This document shows positions 19,747 to 27,720 of a stretch of 64,000 nucleotides of DNA, piece after piece (position 1 is the first letter of the stretch; each line of letters opens with the position of its first letter). The notes beneath the pieces were generated by a model. That model was not told where the DNA came from and did no database searches. It saw only the letters and a list, made by a program, of their open reading frames with translations. The DNA lies in assembly GCA_000955795.1 (NCBI GenBank), contig JYOB01000010.1, forward strand, positions 1 through 64,000, written 5' to 3'. A program made the position numbers and the translations under genes. The DNA is from Burkholderiaceae bacterium 26 (lineage in GTDB: Bacteria; Pseudomonadota; Gammaproteobacteria; Burkholderiales; Burkholderiaceae).

Positions 19747-19950
19747 TCAGATCGCCTCGATCTTCGTAGCAGCCGGGCCCTTTTGGCCAACGCCTGCAAC
19801 GTAGCGCACCTTCTGACCTTCTTGGAGGGACTTGAACCCGTTGCCCTGAACTTCAGAGAAGTGAGCGAAGAGATCGTTGCCGCCTGCGTCCGGGGTGATG
19901 AAGCCGAAGCCCTTGGAGTCGTTGAACCACTTTACTGTGCCGGTTTCCAT
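19747..19950 (-). CDS. cspA: Cold-shock domain protein (CspA family)
   Basis: A 67-residue single cold-shock domain. [18 protein letters not shown] carries RNP1 (KGFGFI) and DLFAHFSEV carries RNP2. The length and the C-terminal GPAATKI are standard. It acts as an RNA chaperone by binding single-stranded nucleic acid. About 250 bases of upstream sequence without a gene on this strand could hold the long 5' leader typical of cold-inducible csp mRNAs; AGGATATCC lies just before the start. Confidence 0.95.
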
Positions 19951-20724: not shown

Positions 20725-21687
20725 TCACAGCGCGTTTGGCGCCGTCCTCCCATTAAGCACCGCAGCGATGTTGTCGAGTGCGGTGAACCCCATCTGATCG
20801 CGCGTCTCGATCGTCGCGCTCGCCATATGCGGCGACAGAAACACATTGTCGAGTGCTGCAAAGCGCGGATCGATATTGGGCTCGTTCCGATAGACGTCGA
20901 GCCCCGCTGCGAACAGCCGCCGCGACGCCAATGCATCGCACAGCGCATCCTCGTCGACGAGACTCCCGCGCGCTGCGTTGACGAACACCGCGCCGTCGCG
21001 CAACAAGCCGAACTCGCGGCGCGTCATCAACGGCGTGCCGCCGCCAGGCACGTGCAGCGTGAGGATGTCGCACTGCGGCAGCAGCGTGTCGAGATCAGCG
21101 CAATAACGCGCGCCGGCCTCGATCTCGGGTGGCGCGGGCCGCCGGTCTGTATAGACGATCTGCATTCCGAAGCCGCGCGCACGCTGTGCGACCGCCCTGC
21201 CGATCCGGCCGAAACCGACGATCCCAAGCGTCTTTCCGTTCACGCGCATGCCAAGCATGTCCGTCATGCCGAACGACTTTCCCCATCCCGCGCGCACGAT
21301 GCGCTCGTATTCCGACGCGCGCCGGCACGCGGCGAGGATCAACAACAGTGTGAAATCGGCAGTGCAGTCGGTCAGCGCGTCGGGCGCGTTGCTGACAACG
21401 ATGCCGCGTGCGCGCGCGGCCGCCACGTCCATGTGGTCGTAACCGGCGCTCGCGTTCGCGATGATCTTCACGCTCGGCGGCAATGCCGCGATGTGCTCGG
21501 CCTGCAGCCCCGATTTCTTGCCGATCAGCACCGCCGGCGTCTCGTGGCGGTTGCAGAATTCGACGACGGTCGGCGCGTCCATGTCGGCGTCGGTCACATA
21601 CGCGTGGAATTCGGCTTCGGCACGTGCGGCCACCGCCGCGGGAACCCGTCGCGCTACTAGGAGACGGGGGCGATTGTTGTCAGGCAT
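20725..21687 (-). CDS. D-isomer-specific 2-hydroxyacid dehydrogenase
   Basis: A 320-residue NAD(P)-dependent dehydrogenase of the glyoxylate/hydroxypyruvate reductase type. The cofactor motif GFGRIG is at 158-163. The catalytic triad is visible as R240 (NAARGSLVDE), E269 (NEPNIDP) and H287 (LSPHMAS). NASAGYDHMD near 78-87 is the substrate-side block. It is read away from the SDR-MFS-VOC-citrate-synthase genes, and the divergent promoter region holds two similar operator-like repeats, so it is likely part of the same pathway. The physiological 2-oxo acid is unknown; glyoxylate, hydroxypyruvate or 2-ketogluconate are family options. Confidence 0.85.
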   Translation of the reverse strand: MPDNNRPRLLVARRVPAAVAARAEAEFHAYVTDADMDAPTVVEFCNRHETPAVLIGKKSGLQAEHIAALPPSVKIIANASAGYDHMDVAAARARGIVVSNAPDALTDCTADFTLLLILAACRRASEYERIVRAGWGKSFGMTDMLGMRVNGKTLGIVGFGRIGRAVAQRARGFGMQIVYTDRRPAPPEIEAGARYCADLDTLLPQCDILTLHVPGGGTPLMTRREFGLLRDGAVFVNAARGSLVDEDALCDALASRRLFAAGLDVYRNEPNIDPRFAALDNVFLSPHMASATIETRDQMGFTALDNIAAVLNGRTAPNAL

Positions 21688-21745
21688 GGTCTCGTCCTTG
21701 GGTCGGAAAACGGAGCACAGCCTACGAAGCAGGGTCGGCGCGGGT

Positions 21746-21770
21746 CAATATTGATTGTTTCGATCAATGT
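21746..21770. promoter_or_regulatory. Operator-like inverted repeat, dehydrogenase side
   Basis: ATTGAT and ATCAAT arms flank a 7-base spacer, about 60 bases upstream of the hydroxyacid dehydrogenase start. The sequence shares ATATTGATTG and ATCAA with the element at 21910-21934 (16 of 25 positions identical overall, the differences lying mainly in the spacer and at the ends). Confidence 0.6.
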
Positions 21771-21909
21771 ATGTGCGTGGCGCGCCGCCGCGGTCTTTCG
21801 GCCTCACTCCGGCGGTGTCCTGCACCGCCCATCCGGCCGCGCCAGTCCGCGAGCGACGTCTCGCCGAACTCAGGAAAACCCTGACGCCGCCCCGTCGCGA
21901 CAGGGCTGT

Positions 21910-21934
21910 TGATATTGATTGAAAGAATCAAGAT
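21910..21934. promoter_or_regulatory. Operator-like inverted repeat, SDR side
   Basis: TTGATT and AATCAA arms around GAAAG, 66 bases before the SDR start. It is the partner of the repeat at 21746-21770. Two matched sites at divergent promoters point to one shared regulator; no standard regulator gene lies in the cassette. Confidence 0.6.
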
Positions 21935-22000
21935 TGCTGGGGAATCGTCACCGCGCAATGCTTTTTGCATGTTCAACGCACTGAAGACGAGGTCGTGAAG

Positions 22001-22759
22001 ATGCAGGCAGAGAAAAGAATCGCGGCGGTGACAGGCGCCGGCACCGGCATCGGCCAGGCGGCGGCCGTCGCGCTGGCGCGCGCCGGGTTCAGCGTCGCAC
22101 TGCTCGGCAGGCGCATCGAACCGCTGCTCGAAACGAAAGAGATCATCGAACGGGCCGGCGGTGTGGCGGCGGCCATTCCAACCGACGTTTCCGACGAAGC
22201 ATCGGTCGACGCCAGCTTCGCGCAAATCGCGCACGCGTTCGGGCGCCTTGACGTGCTGTTCAACAACGCCGGCCGCAACGCGGGCGCCGTGCCGCTCGAC
22301 GACTACTCGCTGCAATTCTGGAACGACGTGGTCGCGACCAACCTGACGGGCGTGTTCTTGTGCGCGCGCGCCGCGTGGCGCCAGATGAAGCGCCAGATGC
22401 CGCAAGGCGGCCGCATCATCAACAATGGTTCGATCTCGGCACACACGCCGCGCCCGAACACGATCGCGTACACCGCCACAAAGCATGCGGTGCTCGGCAT
22501 CACCCGCTCGCTTGCGCTTGATGGCCGGCCGTTCAACATCGCGTGCGGCCAGATCGACATCGGCAACGCCGCTACGTCGCTGACGGAGCGAATGGACAGC
22601 GGCGTGCTGCAGGCCGACGGCCGCGTCGCGCCAGAGCCGCGTGTCGACGTCGCGCACGTCGCGAACGCCATCGTGCAGATGGCGAGCCTGCCGCTTGAGG
22701 CCAACATTCTCAACATGACGATCATGGCCAGCGCGATGCCTTTCGTCGGACGCGGCTGA
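22001..22759 (+). CDS. SDR-family oxidoreductase
   Basis: A 252-residue classical short-chain dehydrogenase starting [18 protein letters not shown]. The cofactor loop TGAGTGIG is at 11-18, NNAG follows in the [10 protein letters not shown] block, and GSISAH plus YTATK give the catalytic Ser, Tyr and Lys. An in-frame ATG at 21965 would add twelve residues; I prefer 22001, with GAGG nine bases upstream. It is the first gene of the SDR-MFS-VOC-citrate-synthase unit. The substrate is not predictable from sequence; a hydroxy acid or its ester imported by the next gene's product is likely. Confidence 0.83.
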
Positions 22760-22825
22760 CCCGACGCGCGCCGGCACACACAAGAACCATACGCCGGCCC
22801 ATCCATCAGACAACAGGAGACAACA

Positions 22826-24142
22826 TTGAAAACTGCAGAAGAACAGGTTCCGGTCATGCGCGAGTTCGACGCGCACGCAGGCGCCGCCAGGCGATCGCGG
22901 GTGCGCTACGGCGTGCTGTCGATGCTGCTGGTGGCGACCGTCCTCAACTTCGTTGATCGCTCGGCGCTCGGCATCGTCGCGCCCGCGCTATCGAAGGATC
23001 TGGCGCTCACCCGCGTGCAGATGGGCGAGCTGTTCGCCGTGTTCGGACTCGCCTATTCGATCGCGCTGCTGCCCGCAGGCGTGCTAGCCGACATGCTGGG
23101 CTCGCGTGTCGCGTATGCGCTGTCGCTCGTCGGCTGGTCGCTGGCCACGCTGACGCAAGGGCTCGCACACGGCTACCACATGCTGCTCGGCTCGCGGCTG
23201 GCGATGGGAGCACTCGAGGCACCCGCGTTTCCGTCGAACGCGCGCGCGGTCACGATGTGGTTCCCGGTCCAGGAACGCGGCTTCGCAACGAGCGTGTACG
23301 TGATGGGCCAGTACATCGGCACGCCGCTCTTCACCGGGCTGCTGTTGTGGATCTCGTCAGCGTTCGGCTGGCGGGCCGTGTTCTTCTCAACGGGTGCATT
23401 CGGCATCCTGTTCAGTGTCGTCTGGTATCGGTTCTATCGCGATCCGTCACGGCATCGCAGCGTCAACGCGGCCGAGCTGCAGTACATCACTGAAGGGCGC
23501 TCCGTGGTGACTGCGCGCGATCGCTTCGAATGGCGCGTGGCGCTGCGCCTGCTCGGCTACCGGCAAATCCTCGCGATCTGTCTGGGCAAGTTCTGCAACA
23601 ACACGCTGCTGGTGTTCTTCACGACCTGGTTCATGACCTATCTGGTCGAGGAACGGCACATGTCGATGATCAAGGTCGGTTTCTTCCAGGCGATGCCGTT
23701 CATCGGCGCGACGCTCGGCATCCTGATCGCAGGCTATCTGTCCGACCTCTGCATCCGCCGCGGCGTGTCGATGTCGTCGTCGCGCAAGGCGCCGCTCGTG
23801 ATCGGCACCTTCCTCGGCGCGTCGATCGTGCTCGTCAACTTTGTGCACTCGAATGGGCTTGTGATCGCGATCCTCACCGTCGCGTTCTTCGCCCAGGGGA
23901 TCGGCTCGATGTCCTGGGCCGCCGTGTCTGAGATTGCGCCTAAACGCTATGTTGGGCTCACCAGCAGTATCACGAGTCTCGCCGCGAATATCGCAGCCGT
24001 CACCACGCCGCTGATGATCGGCTACGTGACGCAGCACACCGGCAGCTTTTTCTGGGCGCTGAACTTGATGGGCGCGATCTGCCTGGTCGGCACACTGTCG
24101 TATTCGGTGCTGCTCGGCAAGCTGTCGCGTATCGAGCTCTAA
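22826..24142 (+). CDS. MFS transporter, anion:cation symporter-type organic acid importer
   Basis: A 438-residue, 12-helix MFS protein. VLNFVDRSALGIVAPALSKD in the first helix region and GVLADMLGSR in loop 2-3 are typical of the ACS family (hexuronate, galactarate, phthalate and tartrate importers). The start codon is TTG at 22826, supported by AGGAG seven bases upstream; the first ATG in frame (22856) has no such site. Its place in the cassette suggests uptake of the carboxylate that the other enzymes degrade. Confidence 0.86.
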   Translation: MKTAEEQVPVMREFDAHAGAARRSRVRYGVLSMLLVATVLNFVDRSALGIVAPALSKDLALTRVQMGELFAVFGLAYSIALLPAGVLADMLGSRVAYALSLVGWSLATLTQGLAHGYHMLLGSRLAMGALEAPAFPSNARAVTMWFPVQERGFATSVYVMGQYIGTPLFTGLLLWISSAFGWRAVFFSTGAFGILFSVVWYRFYRDPSRHRSVNAAELQYITEGRSVVTARDRFEWRVALRLLGYRQILAICLGKFCNNTLLVFFTTWFMTYLVEERHMSMIKVGFFQAMPFIGATLGILIAGYLSDLCIRRGVSMSSSRKAPLVIGTFLGASIVLVNFVHSNGLVIAILTVAFFAQGIGSMSWAAVSEIAPKRYVGLTSSITSLAANIAAVTTPLMIGYVTQHTGSFFWALNLMGAICLVGTLSYSVLLGKLSRIEL

Positions 24143-24199
24143 CCCCATACATGCCATTTGTCTGCCAAGCGCCGACCCCTTCACCCGCAGACCACGACC

Positions 24200-24592
24200 A
24201 TGATCGAATTCAAGTGGGACCACCTGCAACTCTGCTCGGCCGATGCGGAGGCCACCGCCGCATGGTTCGCGCGCTGCCTGAACGCCGAAATCGTGCGACG
24301 CCCCGGTCGCGTCGACCTGCGAATCGGCGCCGTCAACCTGTTCATCACCGCCCAGCCGGACGCGCGTTCGGCGACCGTGACGGAGGGGCGCCGCGTGCAA
24401 GGCATCGACCACTTTGGCGTGCTGGTCGATGATTTGGATGCCGCCTACGCGCACCTGGTCGCGCACGACGCCGAGATCGTCCAGCCCATCATGCGGATCC
24501 GCGCGGGTGTGCGCGGCTGTTTCGTGCGCGCGCCAGGCGACATCCTCGTCGAAGTGCTTGAGCGGCGCCCGACTGAAATGACATTCAACTGA
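24200..24592 (+). CDS. VOC-family (glyoxalase/dioxygenase fold) protein
   Basis: A 130-residue vicinal-oxygen-chelate protein with two beta-alpha-beta-beta-beta units. Likely metal ligands are the histidine in KWDHLQL near residue 7, the histidine in GIDHFGVLVDD near 73 and a glutamate in DILVEVLE near 119. I start at the ATG at 24200 (MIEFKWDHLQL); a TTG at 24158 would add 14 residues that do not fit the fold. Family members include lyases, epimerases and dioxygenases, so the reaction is open. Confidence 0.78.
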   Translation: MIEFKWDHLQLCSADAEATAAWFARCLNAEIVRRPGRVDLRIGAVNLFITAQPDARSATVTEGRRVQGIDHFGVLVDDLDAAYAHLVAHDAEIVQPIMRIRAGVRGCFVRAPGDILVEVLERRPTEMTFN

Positions 24593-24652
24593 ACCCGGTC
24601 TATAGTCGGCGCAAGCGGCCGGACACCGGCCGCATCGTCATCACGACTCCCC

Positions 24653-25900
24653 ATGCAGAACTGGATCACCCTGACGGAAGCGGCGCGTCGGCTCGGCGTG
24701 CGGGCACAGACCGTCTATGCGTATGCGAGCCGCGGCAGTATCGCCGTGATGCAGGACCCCAACGATCCACGCAAGAGCCTGTATCGCGCGGAGGACGTGG
24801 TCACGCTGTGCCGCAAGAAACAGGTCGGCCGCAAGCGCGCGGCGCTGGCAGCCAGCACGATCTTTGGCGCTGAGCCGTGCATCTACAGTGGTATCACCAC
24901 GTTCTCCAAGGGTCGCGCCTGGTATCGGGGCCGCGACAGCATTCAGCTCGCGGATACCGCCACGCTGGAGGAAACGGCCGCTCTGCTCTGGCAGGCCACC
25001 ACGCCCGTGTCGTTCGACGCGCCCGCGATCGCGCTGCCATCCGGCGAGCGCGATCGGCAATGTGCGTTCTCGGTACTCGCGATGCTGGCCGCGCACGGCC
25101 ACTCGACGCTCGGCCGGCTCGACAGCGCTCTGCACATCGAAGCGGGGCAACTCGTCGCGATCGTGTCGAGCGCCTTCGGCGCTCATGGCGATGTCGGTGC
25201 AAGTCCGCTCCCGACCCATCAGCGGCTCGCAGCCGGCTGGGGCCTCGACAGCGATGGCGCGGACCTGCTGCGCCGGGCGATGGTGCTGGTTGCGGATCAC
25301 GAGATCACGAGTTCGGCATTCGCCGCGCGCATCACCGCGTCGACCGGCGCATCGCTCGCCGGCTGCCTGCTGACCGGGCTCGCGACGTTGTCGGGCCCGC
25401 TGCACGGCGACGCGTCGGGGCGCGTGCGCGCGGTGTTCGACGATGTGCAGAGATTGGGCGCCGCGCACGTCGTCGATCACTACCTGAAGTCAGCGATCCC
25501 GATTCCCGGCTTCGGTCATCATCTTTACCCCGATGGCGATCCGCGCGCGGCCGCGTTGCTCGCGCGGCTCCATCCGCCCGCAGAACTGGCGCATTTCGTC
25601 GACAAGGTTACGGAGCTCACCGGCCAGCGGCCGACCATCGATGTCGCGTTCGCGATGCTGTCGGTGCAGCTTCAGTTGCCGTGCGATGCGGCGTTCGGCT
25701 TGTTCTCGATCGCGCGCAGCGTCGGGCTGCTCGCGCACTGCATCGAGCAACTCCGCGTGGGCAAAGTGATTCGGCCGCGCAGCCGCTACACGGGGCCTGC
25801 GCTAGACGAGCGGCATCTGCGCCCCGACATTGAGGACGAAGGCAAATTGCCGAAAGCCGGTGTGATCGAGAAGAATCGGGTGTTCAAGATAGTGGAGTAA
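24653..25900 (+). CDS. Helix-turn-helix domain fused to a citrate synthase-like enzyme
   Basis: A 415-residue protein. Residues about 5-55 (ITLTEAARRLGVRAQTVYAY ... LYRAEDV) form a MerR/excisionase-type DNA-binding domain. From about 70 on it is a citrate synthase fold, with both catalytic histidines (H251 in GPLHGDA, H289 in PGFGHHLYPDGDP) and the aspartate D345 in the LPCDAAFG segment retained. The enzyme part therefore looks active, either as a synthase or as a citryl-CoA-type lyase acting on the pathway's intermediate. It is the last gene of the cassette operon. With no other regulator nearby, the HTH part may link catalysis to control of the cassette; that is inference. Confidence 0.82.
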   Translation: MQNWITLTEAARRLGVRAQTVYAYASRGSIAVMQDPNDPRKSLYRAEDVVTLCRKKQVGRKRAALAASTIFGAEPCIYSGITTFSKGRAWYRGRDSIQLADTATLEETAALLWQATTPVSFDAPAIALPSGERDRQCAFSVLAMLAAHGHSTLGRLDSALHIEAGQLVAIVSSAFGAHGDVGASPLPTHQRLAAGWGLDSDGADLLRRAMVLVADHEITSSAFAARITASTGASLAGCLLTGLATLSGPLHGDASGRVRAVFDDVQRLGAAHVVDHYLKSAIPIPGFGHHLYPDGDPRAAALLARLHPPAELAHFVDKVTELTGQRPTIDVAFAMLSVQLQLPCDAAFGLFSIARSVGLLAHCIEQLRVGKVIRPRSRYTGPALDERHLRPDIEDEGKLPKAGVIEKNRVFKIVE

Positions 25901-26100: not shown

Positions 26101-27720
26101 TCACTCCCACTCGATCGTCGCAGGCGGTTTACCCGACACGTCATACACGACCCGGCTCAACCCGCGCACTTCATTGATGATGCGGTTCGACACGCGGCCC
26201 AGCAGCGTGTACGGCAGATGCGCCCAATGTGCGGTCATGAAATCGGTGGTCTGCACAGCACGCAGCGCGGTCACGTAGTCGTACGTCCGACCATCGCCCA
26301 TCACGCCGACCGACTTGATCGGCAGGAACACCGCAAACGCCTGGCTGGTCAGGTCGTACCAGCTCTTGCCGACATCGCCTTCGCCACACAGGCCGGCGGC
26401 CGCGTCCTGCGCCGTGGCCTTGGTGCCGCGCAGCTCTTCGATGAAGATGGCATCGGCACGGCGCAGCAGGTCTGCGTATTCACGTTTGACCTCGCCCAGA
26501 ATGCGCACGCCCAGACCCGGTCCCGGGAACGGATGGCGATACACCATCTCGTGCGGCAGGCCCAGCGCCACGCCCAGCTCGCGCACTTCGTCCTTGAACA
26601 GATCGCGCAGCGGCTCGAGCAGCTTCAACCCCAGCGTTTCCGGCAGTCCGCCCACGTTGTGGTGGCTCTTGATGGTCGTCGCCTTCTTGGTCTTGGTGCC
26701 GCCCGATTCCACCACGTCCGGGTAGATCGTGCCCTGCGCCAGCCACTTGGCGTTGCTGAGCTTCTTGGCTTCGGCCTGGAACACTTCAACGAACTCGCGG
26801 CCAATGATCTTGCGCTTGGCTTCCGGGTCCGTCACGCCAGCCAGATGGCCCAGGAACTGCTCGGAGGCATCCACGTGCACGACCTTGGCGTGCAGGCGGC
26901 CAGCGAACATGTCCATCACCATCTTGCCTTCGTCCAGGCGCAGCAAGCCGTGATCGACGAATACGCAGGTGAGCTTGTCGCCAATCGCACGGTGGATCAG
27001 TGCCGCTGCCACCGACGAATCAACACCGCCCGACAGGCCGAGGATCACCTCCTCATCGCCCACCTGCTCGCGGATGGCCTTGACGGCTTCGTCGATGTGG
27101 TCGCGCATGACCCAGTCGGGCTTGGCACCGGCAATTTCCAGCACAAAGCGCTCGAGCAGCGCACGGCCTTGCACGGTATGGGTAACTTCCGGGTGGAACT
27201 GCACGGCGTAATAGCCACGCGCCTCATCGGCCATGCCGGCGACCGGGCAGCTCGGCGTCGAGGCCAGCAGCTTGAAGCCGGGCGGCAGTTCCGTAACCTT
27301 GTCGCCGTGGCTCATCCAGACCTTGAGCATGCCGTGGCCTTCCGGCGTGGCGAAGTCCTGGATGTCCTTGAGCAGACGGGTGTGGCCATGCGCGCGCACT
27401 TCGGCGTAACCGAATTCGCGGTGGTCGCTCCACTCCACCTTGCCGCCCAGCTGCACGGCCATGGTCTGCATGCCGTAGCAGATGCCGAGCACAGGCACGC
27501 CAAGGTCCCACACGGCCTGCGGCGCGCGCAGTTGATGGTCTTCGTACGTGCTGGCGTGGCTGCCGGACAGGATGATCGCCTTGGGCGCGAACTCGCGCAC
27601 GAAGGCGTCGGACACGTCGTTCGGGTGAATCTCGCAGTAGACGTGTGCTTCACGCACGCGCCGCGCAATCAGTTGCGTGACCTGCGAGCCGAAATCAAGG
27701 ATGAGGACTTTGTCGTGCAT
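26101..27720 (-). CDS. guaA: GMP synthase (glutamine-hydrolysing)
   Basis: A 539-residue enzyme converting XMP to GMP. Residues about 1-200 are the class I glutamine amidotransferase ([18 protein letters not shown] at the start, GICYGMQ with the catalytic cysteine, and a C-terminal HPE). The ATP-pyrophosphatase domain has the P-loop [16 protein letters not shown], and the C-terminal dimerisation domain ends TIEWE. I start at 27720 (MHDKVLIL). The upstream membrane-protein gene overlaps by 26 bases, and guaB lies just beyond it, so guanine-nucleotide synthesis genes are grouped here. Confidence 0.97.

Follow-up and report, generated by a model that had tools for sequence, protein, structure and literature searches.

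The window analyzed here, a stretch of 64,000 nucleotides from Burkholderiaceae bacterium 26, harbors a cassette of five genes between a cold-shock-like gene (19747-19950, minus strand) and guaA (26101-27720, minus strand), both flanks assigned by eye; this is where an earlier note on the same DNA had placed the five genes. From one intergenic region, a gene for a D-2-hydroxyacid dehydrogenase resembling glyoxylate/hydroxypyruvate reductases (20725-21687, minus strand; PF02826/PF00389) runs leftward, and four plus-strand genes run rightward, encoding a short-chain dehydrogenase/reductase (SDR; 22001-22759; PF00106), a major facilitator superfamily (MFS) importer of the D-galactonate-transporter type (22856-24142; PF07690), a VOC (glyoxalase-fold family) protein (24200-24592; PF00903) and a fusion of a helix-turn-helix (HTH) domain with citrate synthase (24653-25900; PF00285 plus HTH), which we propose as regulator of the cassette. 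The importer matches solved structures of DgoT (6e9n, E 1.1e-94; 6e9o, E 3e-94), and its gene has an alternative TTG start, also open, at 22826. According to Pfam, three of the five proteins are oxidoreductases or transporter, and a scan of all five yielded no match to a CoA ligase or CoA transferase. Dehydrogenase residues Arg240, Glu269 and His287, presumably catalytic, are kept in all 39 other matched cassette loci, and Ser144, Tyr157 and Lys161 of the SDR in 40/40 matched loci (39 cassette loci and the distant locus L050).

A homologue search returned 42 loci, comprising 38 cassette loci and four others (L043-L045 and L047) in which the fusion gene alone was detected, in L047 as a piece. 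All five genes are detected in 34 of the 38 cassette loci, and in 40/44 once plasmid and whole-genome loci are added. Three of the incomplete loci lack the VOC gene (L012, L015, L023) and one begins within the cassette at a contig end (L019); in L033 the SDR match is only partial, and in L046 a contig end cuts the fusion gene. These 44 loci are not all independent, since L018 and L139 look like one locus and L137 and L138 share a replicon, a 210-kb contig (G790:C4) carrying two cassette copies whose fusion proteins share 92% and 90% identity with that of the window. Hosts comprise Ralstonia, Burkholderia, Paraburkholderia, Caballeronia, Ideonella and one metagenome-assembled genome labeled Pandoraea, and the nearest locus is that of Ralstonia pickettii SSH4 (L006; fusion protein 99% identical), whereas a Paraburkholderia orthologue of the fusion protein shows ~70-75% identity. 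The commonest flanking family occurs at 9 of the 44 loci without a fixed position, and annotated neighbors of the cassette are unlike between plasmids of Burkholderia cepacia and Paraburkholderia sprentiae. With its SDR present in only 3/16 genomes of the window's genus, the cassette is accessory. The earlier note had suggested a gene-neighborhood search and held that a lack of co-occurrence would speak against a system; the five families do co-occur elsewhere, and its picture of an uncharacterized set of genes that is conserved and self-contained, shares one divergent promoter region and includes an importer of the organic-acid type is borne out. Its remark that the combination fits no pathway familiar to its author also stands as far as a literature search on the gene names goes, in which no paper combining four of the five names and no described pathway for the cassette turned up.

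The fusion protein consists of an N-terminal winged-HTH DNA-binding domain (residues 1-54; 24653-24814, plus strand) and a citrate-synthase domain (residues 77-376; 24881-25780, plus strand; PF00285), the proposed sensor. The window protein scores 26.7 bits against PF12728 (HTH_17), just below the cut-off of 27; among 32 aligned family members all match HTH_17 at E <= 0.01 and 23 match MerR_1. Residues 1-67 model as a winged helix of the MerR/Xis type (pLDDT 87), the nearest solved structures being Xis, BldC-DNA and SoxR-DNA, with CarH also matched, so that the predicted protein has the DNA-binding domain expected of a one-component regulator. The HTH segment T.YAY.SRG is nearly invariant and among the most conserved stretches of the protein. 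Structure comparison over residues 71-378 reveals the citrate-synthase fold across the whole domain. His251, His289 and Asp330, which we take to be the catalytic triad of citrate synthase, are kept together with His216, Arg298 and Arg355 in 43/43 rows of the cassette clade and in most rows of the other classes; Arg374/376 is also kept. Fold and catalytic His, His and Asp are thus shared with the citrate and 2-methylcitrate synthases of PF00285 (PrpC, GltA, CitA of Mycobacterium tuberculosis), from which the fusion protein differs by its winged HTH and a shorter stretch before the catalytic Asp, and its gene by being mostly divergent from its neighbor and tied to a predicted operator.

Two copies of a palindrome, TTGAT-N7-ATCAA, mark the intergenic region of the cassette. 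Operator 1, TTGATTGTTTCGATCAA (21751-21767), adjoins a candidate -35 element of the dehydrogenase promoter, TTGACC (21743-21748, minus strand; consensus ATTGAC in 39 aligned loci), which is spaced by 18 bp from a candidate -10 element, TAGGCT (21719-21724, minus strand; TAGTCT/TAGGCT is conserved in the aligned promoters). Operator 2, TTGATTGAAAGAATCAA (21915-21931), adjoins TTGCTG (21934-21939, plus strand; consensus ATTGCT in the same 39 loci), a candidate weak -35 element of the SDR operon, whose last gene in the cassette clade is the fusion gene, the operator lying at the promoter of that operon. In every cassette intergenic region amenable to extraction (40/40), there are exactly two copies, one per promoter, mostly of the form TTGATY-N5-RATCAA, and no third copy was found in any of the 40 cassette stretches (10-21 kb each). 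Across the 5.68 Mb of the own genome (G000), the loose pattern TTGAT-N7-ATCAA occurs at eight places, two of them in the cassette. One further operator-like palindrome, TTGATCGCCGCGATCAA (G000:C44:222270-222286), obeys the Y/R rule. In the Paraburkholderia loci L012, L014 and L016 (and with one change in L015), GTCAATATTG stands directly before the fusion gene, like half an extended operator.

Found first in the cassette clade, the motif was then tested on 90 distant loci, that is, every non-cassette locus then fetched, including L043-L045 and excluding L047. The fusion proteins of these loci are 31-59% identical to that of the window in the best segment, and their neighbors are mostly unrelated. 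An exact TTGAT-N7-ATCAA is situated 8-91 bp upstream of the fusion gene start in 74/90 loci, whereas the other 1,153,932 bases contain a single such site. Nine of the 16 loci without an exact site carry one with a single mismatch and seven none within two mismatches; among these seven, the half-sites are present in L079 (Deinococcus), separated by a spacer that is shorter by one base, and the other six have nothing. Grouped at 60% identity, the distant loci form 33 clusters, and the exact site occurs in at least one member of 22 and in all members of 21, so the association is not explained by close kinship alone. Among the 89 distant loci with a called neighbor, 87 have the fusion gene and the gene upstream of it in divergent orientation, compared with 222/713 (31%) of other genes there; L091 and L132 are not divergent and L093 stops at a contig end. 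An earlier, cruder gene calling had given 74/76 against a baseline of 177/603. On the side facing the target gene, a G or T comes after the operator and next ATTGA(C/T), and TTGA occupies the -35 position in 65 of the 74 loci with an exact site. A -10-like hexamer (at least 4/6 matches, 14-21 bp away) is present in 48/74 loci versus 4/74 in a control stretch. The single best -35/-10 spacing is most often 17 bp (26 loci), 18 bp (16 loci) or 14 bp (9 loci), and 15 loci are tied. The cassette promoters share this operator/-35 layout.

Neighbor classes, named from Pfam and NCBIfam scans of representatives, annotated records and BLAST clustering, differ widely in the enzymes concerned. Exact sites occur in 25/30 loci neighboring an HTH-less citrate synthase, 15/18 with a CoA transferase III, 12/12 of the 2-hydroxyacid dehydrogenase-FAH-SDR class, 8/9 of the MFS-dehydrogenase class, 6/6 at methylcitrate-cycle (prp) genes, 2/2 with a methyltransferase, 0/4 with a cation-efflux gene and 6/9 of the others. 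On sequence comparison, the 17-bp operator is thereby tied to the HTH-citrate synthase family across Pseudomonadota, whatever the neighbors. The four cation-efflux loci (L097, L105, L113, L114; gene identified by Pfam in L097 and by similarity in the others) encode fusion proteins devoid of the catalytic triad and divergent from the efflux gene, and a recognizable operator was not found upstream of these four fusion genes. The own genome contains a second HTH-citrate synthase (L051, G000:C6:359674-360852), 39% identical to the first and divergent from a CoA transferase III; its operator, TTGACTAGACTGATCAA, is one mismatch off, and the same letters recur in L129, from another genome of the genus.

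These data weigh on the role that the earlier note had given to the fusion protein, namely a pathway enzyme that condenses or cleaves its substrate with acetyl-CoA, in which case the HTH would be incidental. The gene does stand downstream in line with the cassette enzymes and the active site is intact; however, operator and divergent arrangement track the protein through loci with unrelated enzymes, and T.YAY.SRG is among its most conserved parts. We consider such a purely metabolic role very improbable. Its relatives have a single operator in common and are encoded divergently from catabolic genes of various kinds, which points at a regulator instead. Since the catalytic residues are intact, the protein may still have an enzymatic activity.

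Whether some other, unlinked regulator occupies the sites, with the fusion gene merely one of its targets, has to be considered as well, as the pairing of operator and protein derives from sequence comparison and the half-sites resemble boxes of the FNR type. An FNR-type box is TTGAT-N4-ATCAA, and spacer length rules out FNR-type control: a spacer of 4 is found at 3/90 distant loci versus 74/90 for a spacer of 7, and every other spacer between 0 and 14 at 0-4 of the 90 loci. For a genome-wide view, a set of 397 Pseudomonadota genomes, the same draw as for the protein search, was scanned for the extended pattern CAATMTTGATN7ATCAA, counting a genome as having the fusion protein at E <= 1e-40. 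Among the 58 genomes with the protein, 47 have the extended site, as do 20 of the 339 without it (Fisher p ~2e-34, which is only a guide because the genomes are related). The 20 genomes lacking the protein would suit an unlinked regulator. The 58 genomes with the protein, however, contain 51 extended sites, of which 46 lie directly upstream of a fusion gene, four at cassette promoters (in G000 and G264) and one elsewhere, a distribution unexpected for a general regulator; we regard this explanation, too, as hardly probable. With 50 of the 51 sites at fusion gene or cassette promoters, the control exerted by each fusion protein seems to extend to little more than its own neighbor. At the same threshold, fusion proteins are present in 58/397 Pseudomonadota genomes, in 13/300 of the order sample and in 75/150 of the window's family.

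A quick tree of 73 rows, built from a sample of the loci and containing two long-branched outgroup rows, places the fusion proteins on one side of a branch and the HTH-less enzymes on the other (SH-aLRT 96). The sister of the cassette clade is the dehydrogenase-FAH-SDR class (support 100), and the MFS-dehydrogenase class joins both (95). By this grouping, the three classes that would control a 2-hydroxyacid dehydrogenase form one lineage, in which the dehydrogenase is retained alongside either an MFS importer or a binding protein of the TctC type, an SDR is found in two classes, a VOC protein in one and a FAH-family protein in another.

At six distant loci (L099-L102, L104 and L106), HTH-citrate synthases stand at prp genes; the one in L099 is divergent from prpB, prpC and acnD, and in L106 prpF lies ~3 kb off. 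Because all six carry the operator, the fusion proteins there suggest a methylcitrate-cycle regulator unlike PrpR. PrpR controls prp genes as well. PrpR of Xanthomonas citri, likened by its authors to Salmonella PrpR, a sigma-54 activator, binds GTTGCAA-N2-TTGCAAC (PMC12153269), a site unlike TTGAT-N7-ATCAA that rules it out as the same regulator; in the excerpt of that article, it is not described as a citrate-synthase protein. A literature search by titles and abstract openings turned up no paper on an HTH-citrate synthase regulator or on this cassette, and those listed under the name PrpQ (20 of 314) were unrelated. An article by Suvorova et al. (J Bacteriol, 2012), whose subject is malonate and propionate regulation, reportedly described new regulators, one perhaps called PrpQ, which bears on priority for the prp subgroup.

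Predicted operators are thus present at the very promoters that the fusion protein would control, as for a sequence-specific regulator, and we consider it very likely, from these genomic comparisons, that the HTH-citrate synthase is a dedicated one-component transcription regulator of the cassette. The N-terminal winged HTH would bind the operator as a dimer held together by the citrate-synthase fold. Regulators of the LysR type are encoded divergently from their target operon, with a site upstream of the target -35 and their own start nearby. The layout of the fusion gene is similar, whereas LysR-type proteins combine another HTH class with a periplasmic-binding-protein effector domain in place of citrate synthase. 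MerR family proteins, BldC and Xis share the winged HTH type (HTH_17/MerR_1 and structure matches); unlike the fusion protein, whose predicted operator precedes the predicted -35, the MerR family uses an operator within an over-long -35/-10 spacer, and the citrate-synthase effector domain sets the fusion protein apart. NrtR is a regulator derived from Nudix hydrolases. As in NrtR and other enzyme-derived regulators, a metabolic enzyme fold next to an HTH serves as the putative sensor here; enzyme fold and operator are unlike those of NrtR, and the catalytic residues of the fusion protein are still intact.

The direction of control can be judged from operator position. A site just upstream of the -35 element is a frequent place for activators, and bound there, the regulator would activate the dehydrogenase promoter and that of the SDR-MFS-VOC-regulator operon; we favor activation with some confidence. 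The same protein might instead repress both cassette promoters until a ligand releases it, given that the operator touches the predicted -35 and, in distant loci, stands 8-91 bp upstream of where the regulator gene itself starts. Yet it precedes the target's predicted core promoter and does not span it, and the -35 on the SDR side is poor (TTGCT), as at activated promoters; repression therefore appears possible, though the less probable mode. Under activation, the operator near the fusion gene's own start in distant loci should limit the regulator's own expression. Between the VOC and fusion genes, a perfect hairpin with an 8-bp stem, GCGGCCGG ACA CCGGCCGC (24615-24633), possibly tunes expression of the regulator; similar G+C-rich repeats are present in the closely related Burkholderia loci but not obviously in Paraburkholderia.

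With its oxaloacetate/citrate pocket intact, the citrate-synthase domain may sense an oxaloacetate- or citrate-like acid, a ligand class to which we assign an even chance. Another reading is that the fusion protein is a trigger enzyme, an (alkyl)citrate synthase that is active in the pathway and at the same time regulates it, with substrate turnover setting DNA binding. His251, His289, Asp330, Arg298, Arg355 and His216 are conserved as expected for such an enzyme, and PrpC of L099 (above the NCBIfam cut-off) has a GFGHP loop, as many fusion proteins do. The basic residues after the His differ from those of GltA, and PrpC differs too; a loss of CoA-binding residues is weakened as an interpretation by a similar GFGHP change in the PrpC-like protein of the own genome and in PrpC of L099. 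Against an active enzyme, which would need its CoA-binding small domain, this part looks shortened: only 31 residues separate DPR from the catalytic Asp in the cassette clade and most other fusion protein classes, compared with 41 in PrpC, 48 in GltA and 45-49 in the adjacent HTH-less enzymes, the prp class being an exception with 38, and distant loci often have a separate HTH-less citrate synthase or PrpC alongside. On balance, we hold the trigger enzyme to be rather unlikely. HTH-less citrate synthases beside distant loci (e.g., L043:8819-9910) have Glu at the catalytic-Asp position in 30/30 cases.

Developed further, and only tentatively, family members might be working or near-working (alkyl)citrate synthases that signal DNA binding when closed and filled with substrate, letting the cell read its supply of keto acid and acyl-CoA directly. 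The operator would then have stayed near-invariant in Alpha-, Beta- and Gammaproteobacteria alike, Deinococcus having a variant of it, and the controlled genes would have been exchanged, among them those for the methylcitrate cycle, for another citrate synthase or for CoA transferases, and hydroxyacid cassettes like the present one.

As for the cassette itself, it probably imports and processes an organic acid. The sensor pocket for oxaloacetate- or citrate-like acids makes a tartrate-, malate- or citrate-like hydroxy acid the natural guess, and the enzymes could import a hydroxy- or keto-di/tricarboxylate, tartrate- or malate-like, and redox-convert it into central metabolism: the SDR might oxidize it, the VOC or FAH protein decarboxylate or tautomerize the product, and the dehydrogenase reduce the resulting keto product. 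In Burkholderia cepacia, a mandelate-racemase-family gene (L048:4395-5540) adjoins the cassette; it resembles talarate/galactarate dehydratase with a score well under the cut-off, and may hint at a sugar-acid-like substrate.

Collectively, we conclude from the compared loci that HTH-citrate synthases represent a widespread family of predicted transcription factors with a citrate-synthase sensor in which the catalytic residues are intact. If true, many proteins annotated as citrate synthase would be gene regulators, and metabolic models counting them as enzymes would be wrong. As the operator would show what each family member controls, it offers a handle on several uncharacterized organic-acid gene sets, this cassette included, and the fusion proteins may serve as a family of sensors for keto acids or acids resembling citrate.

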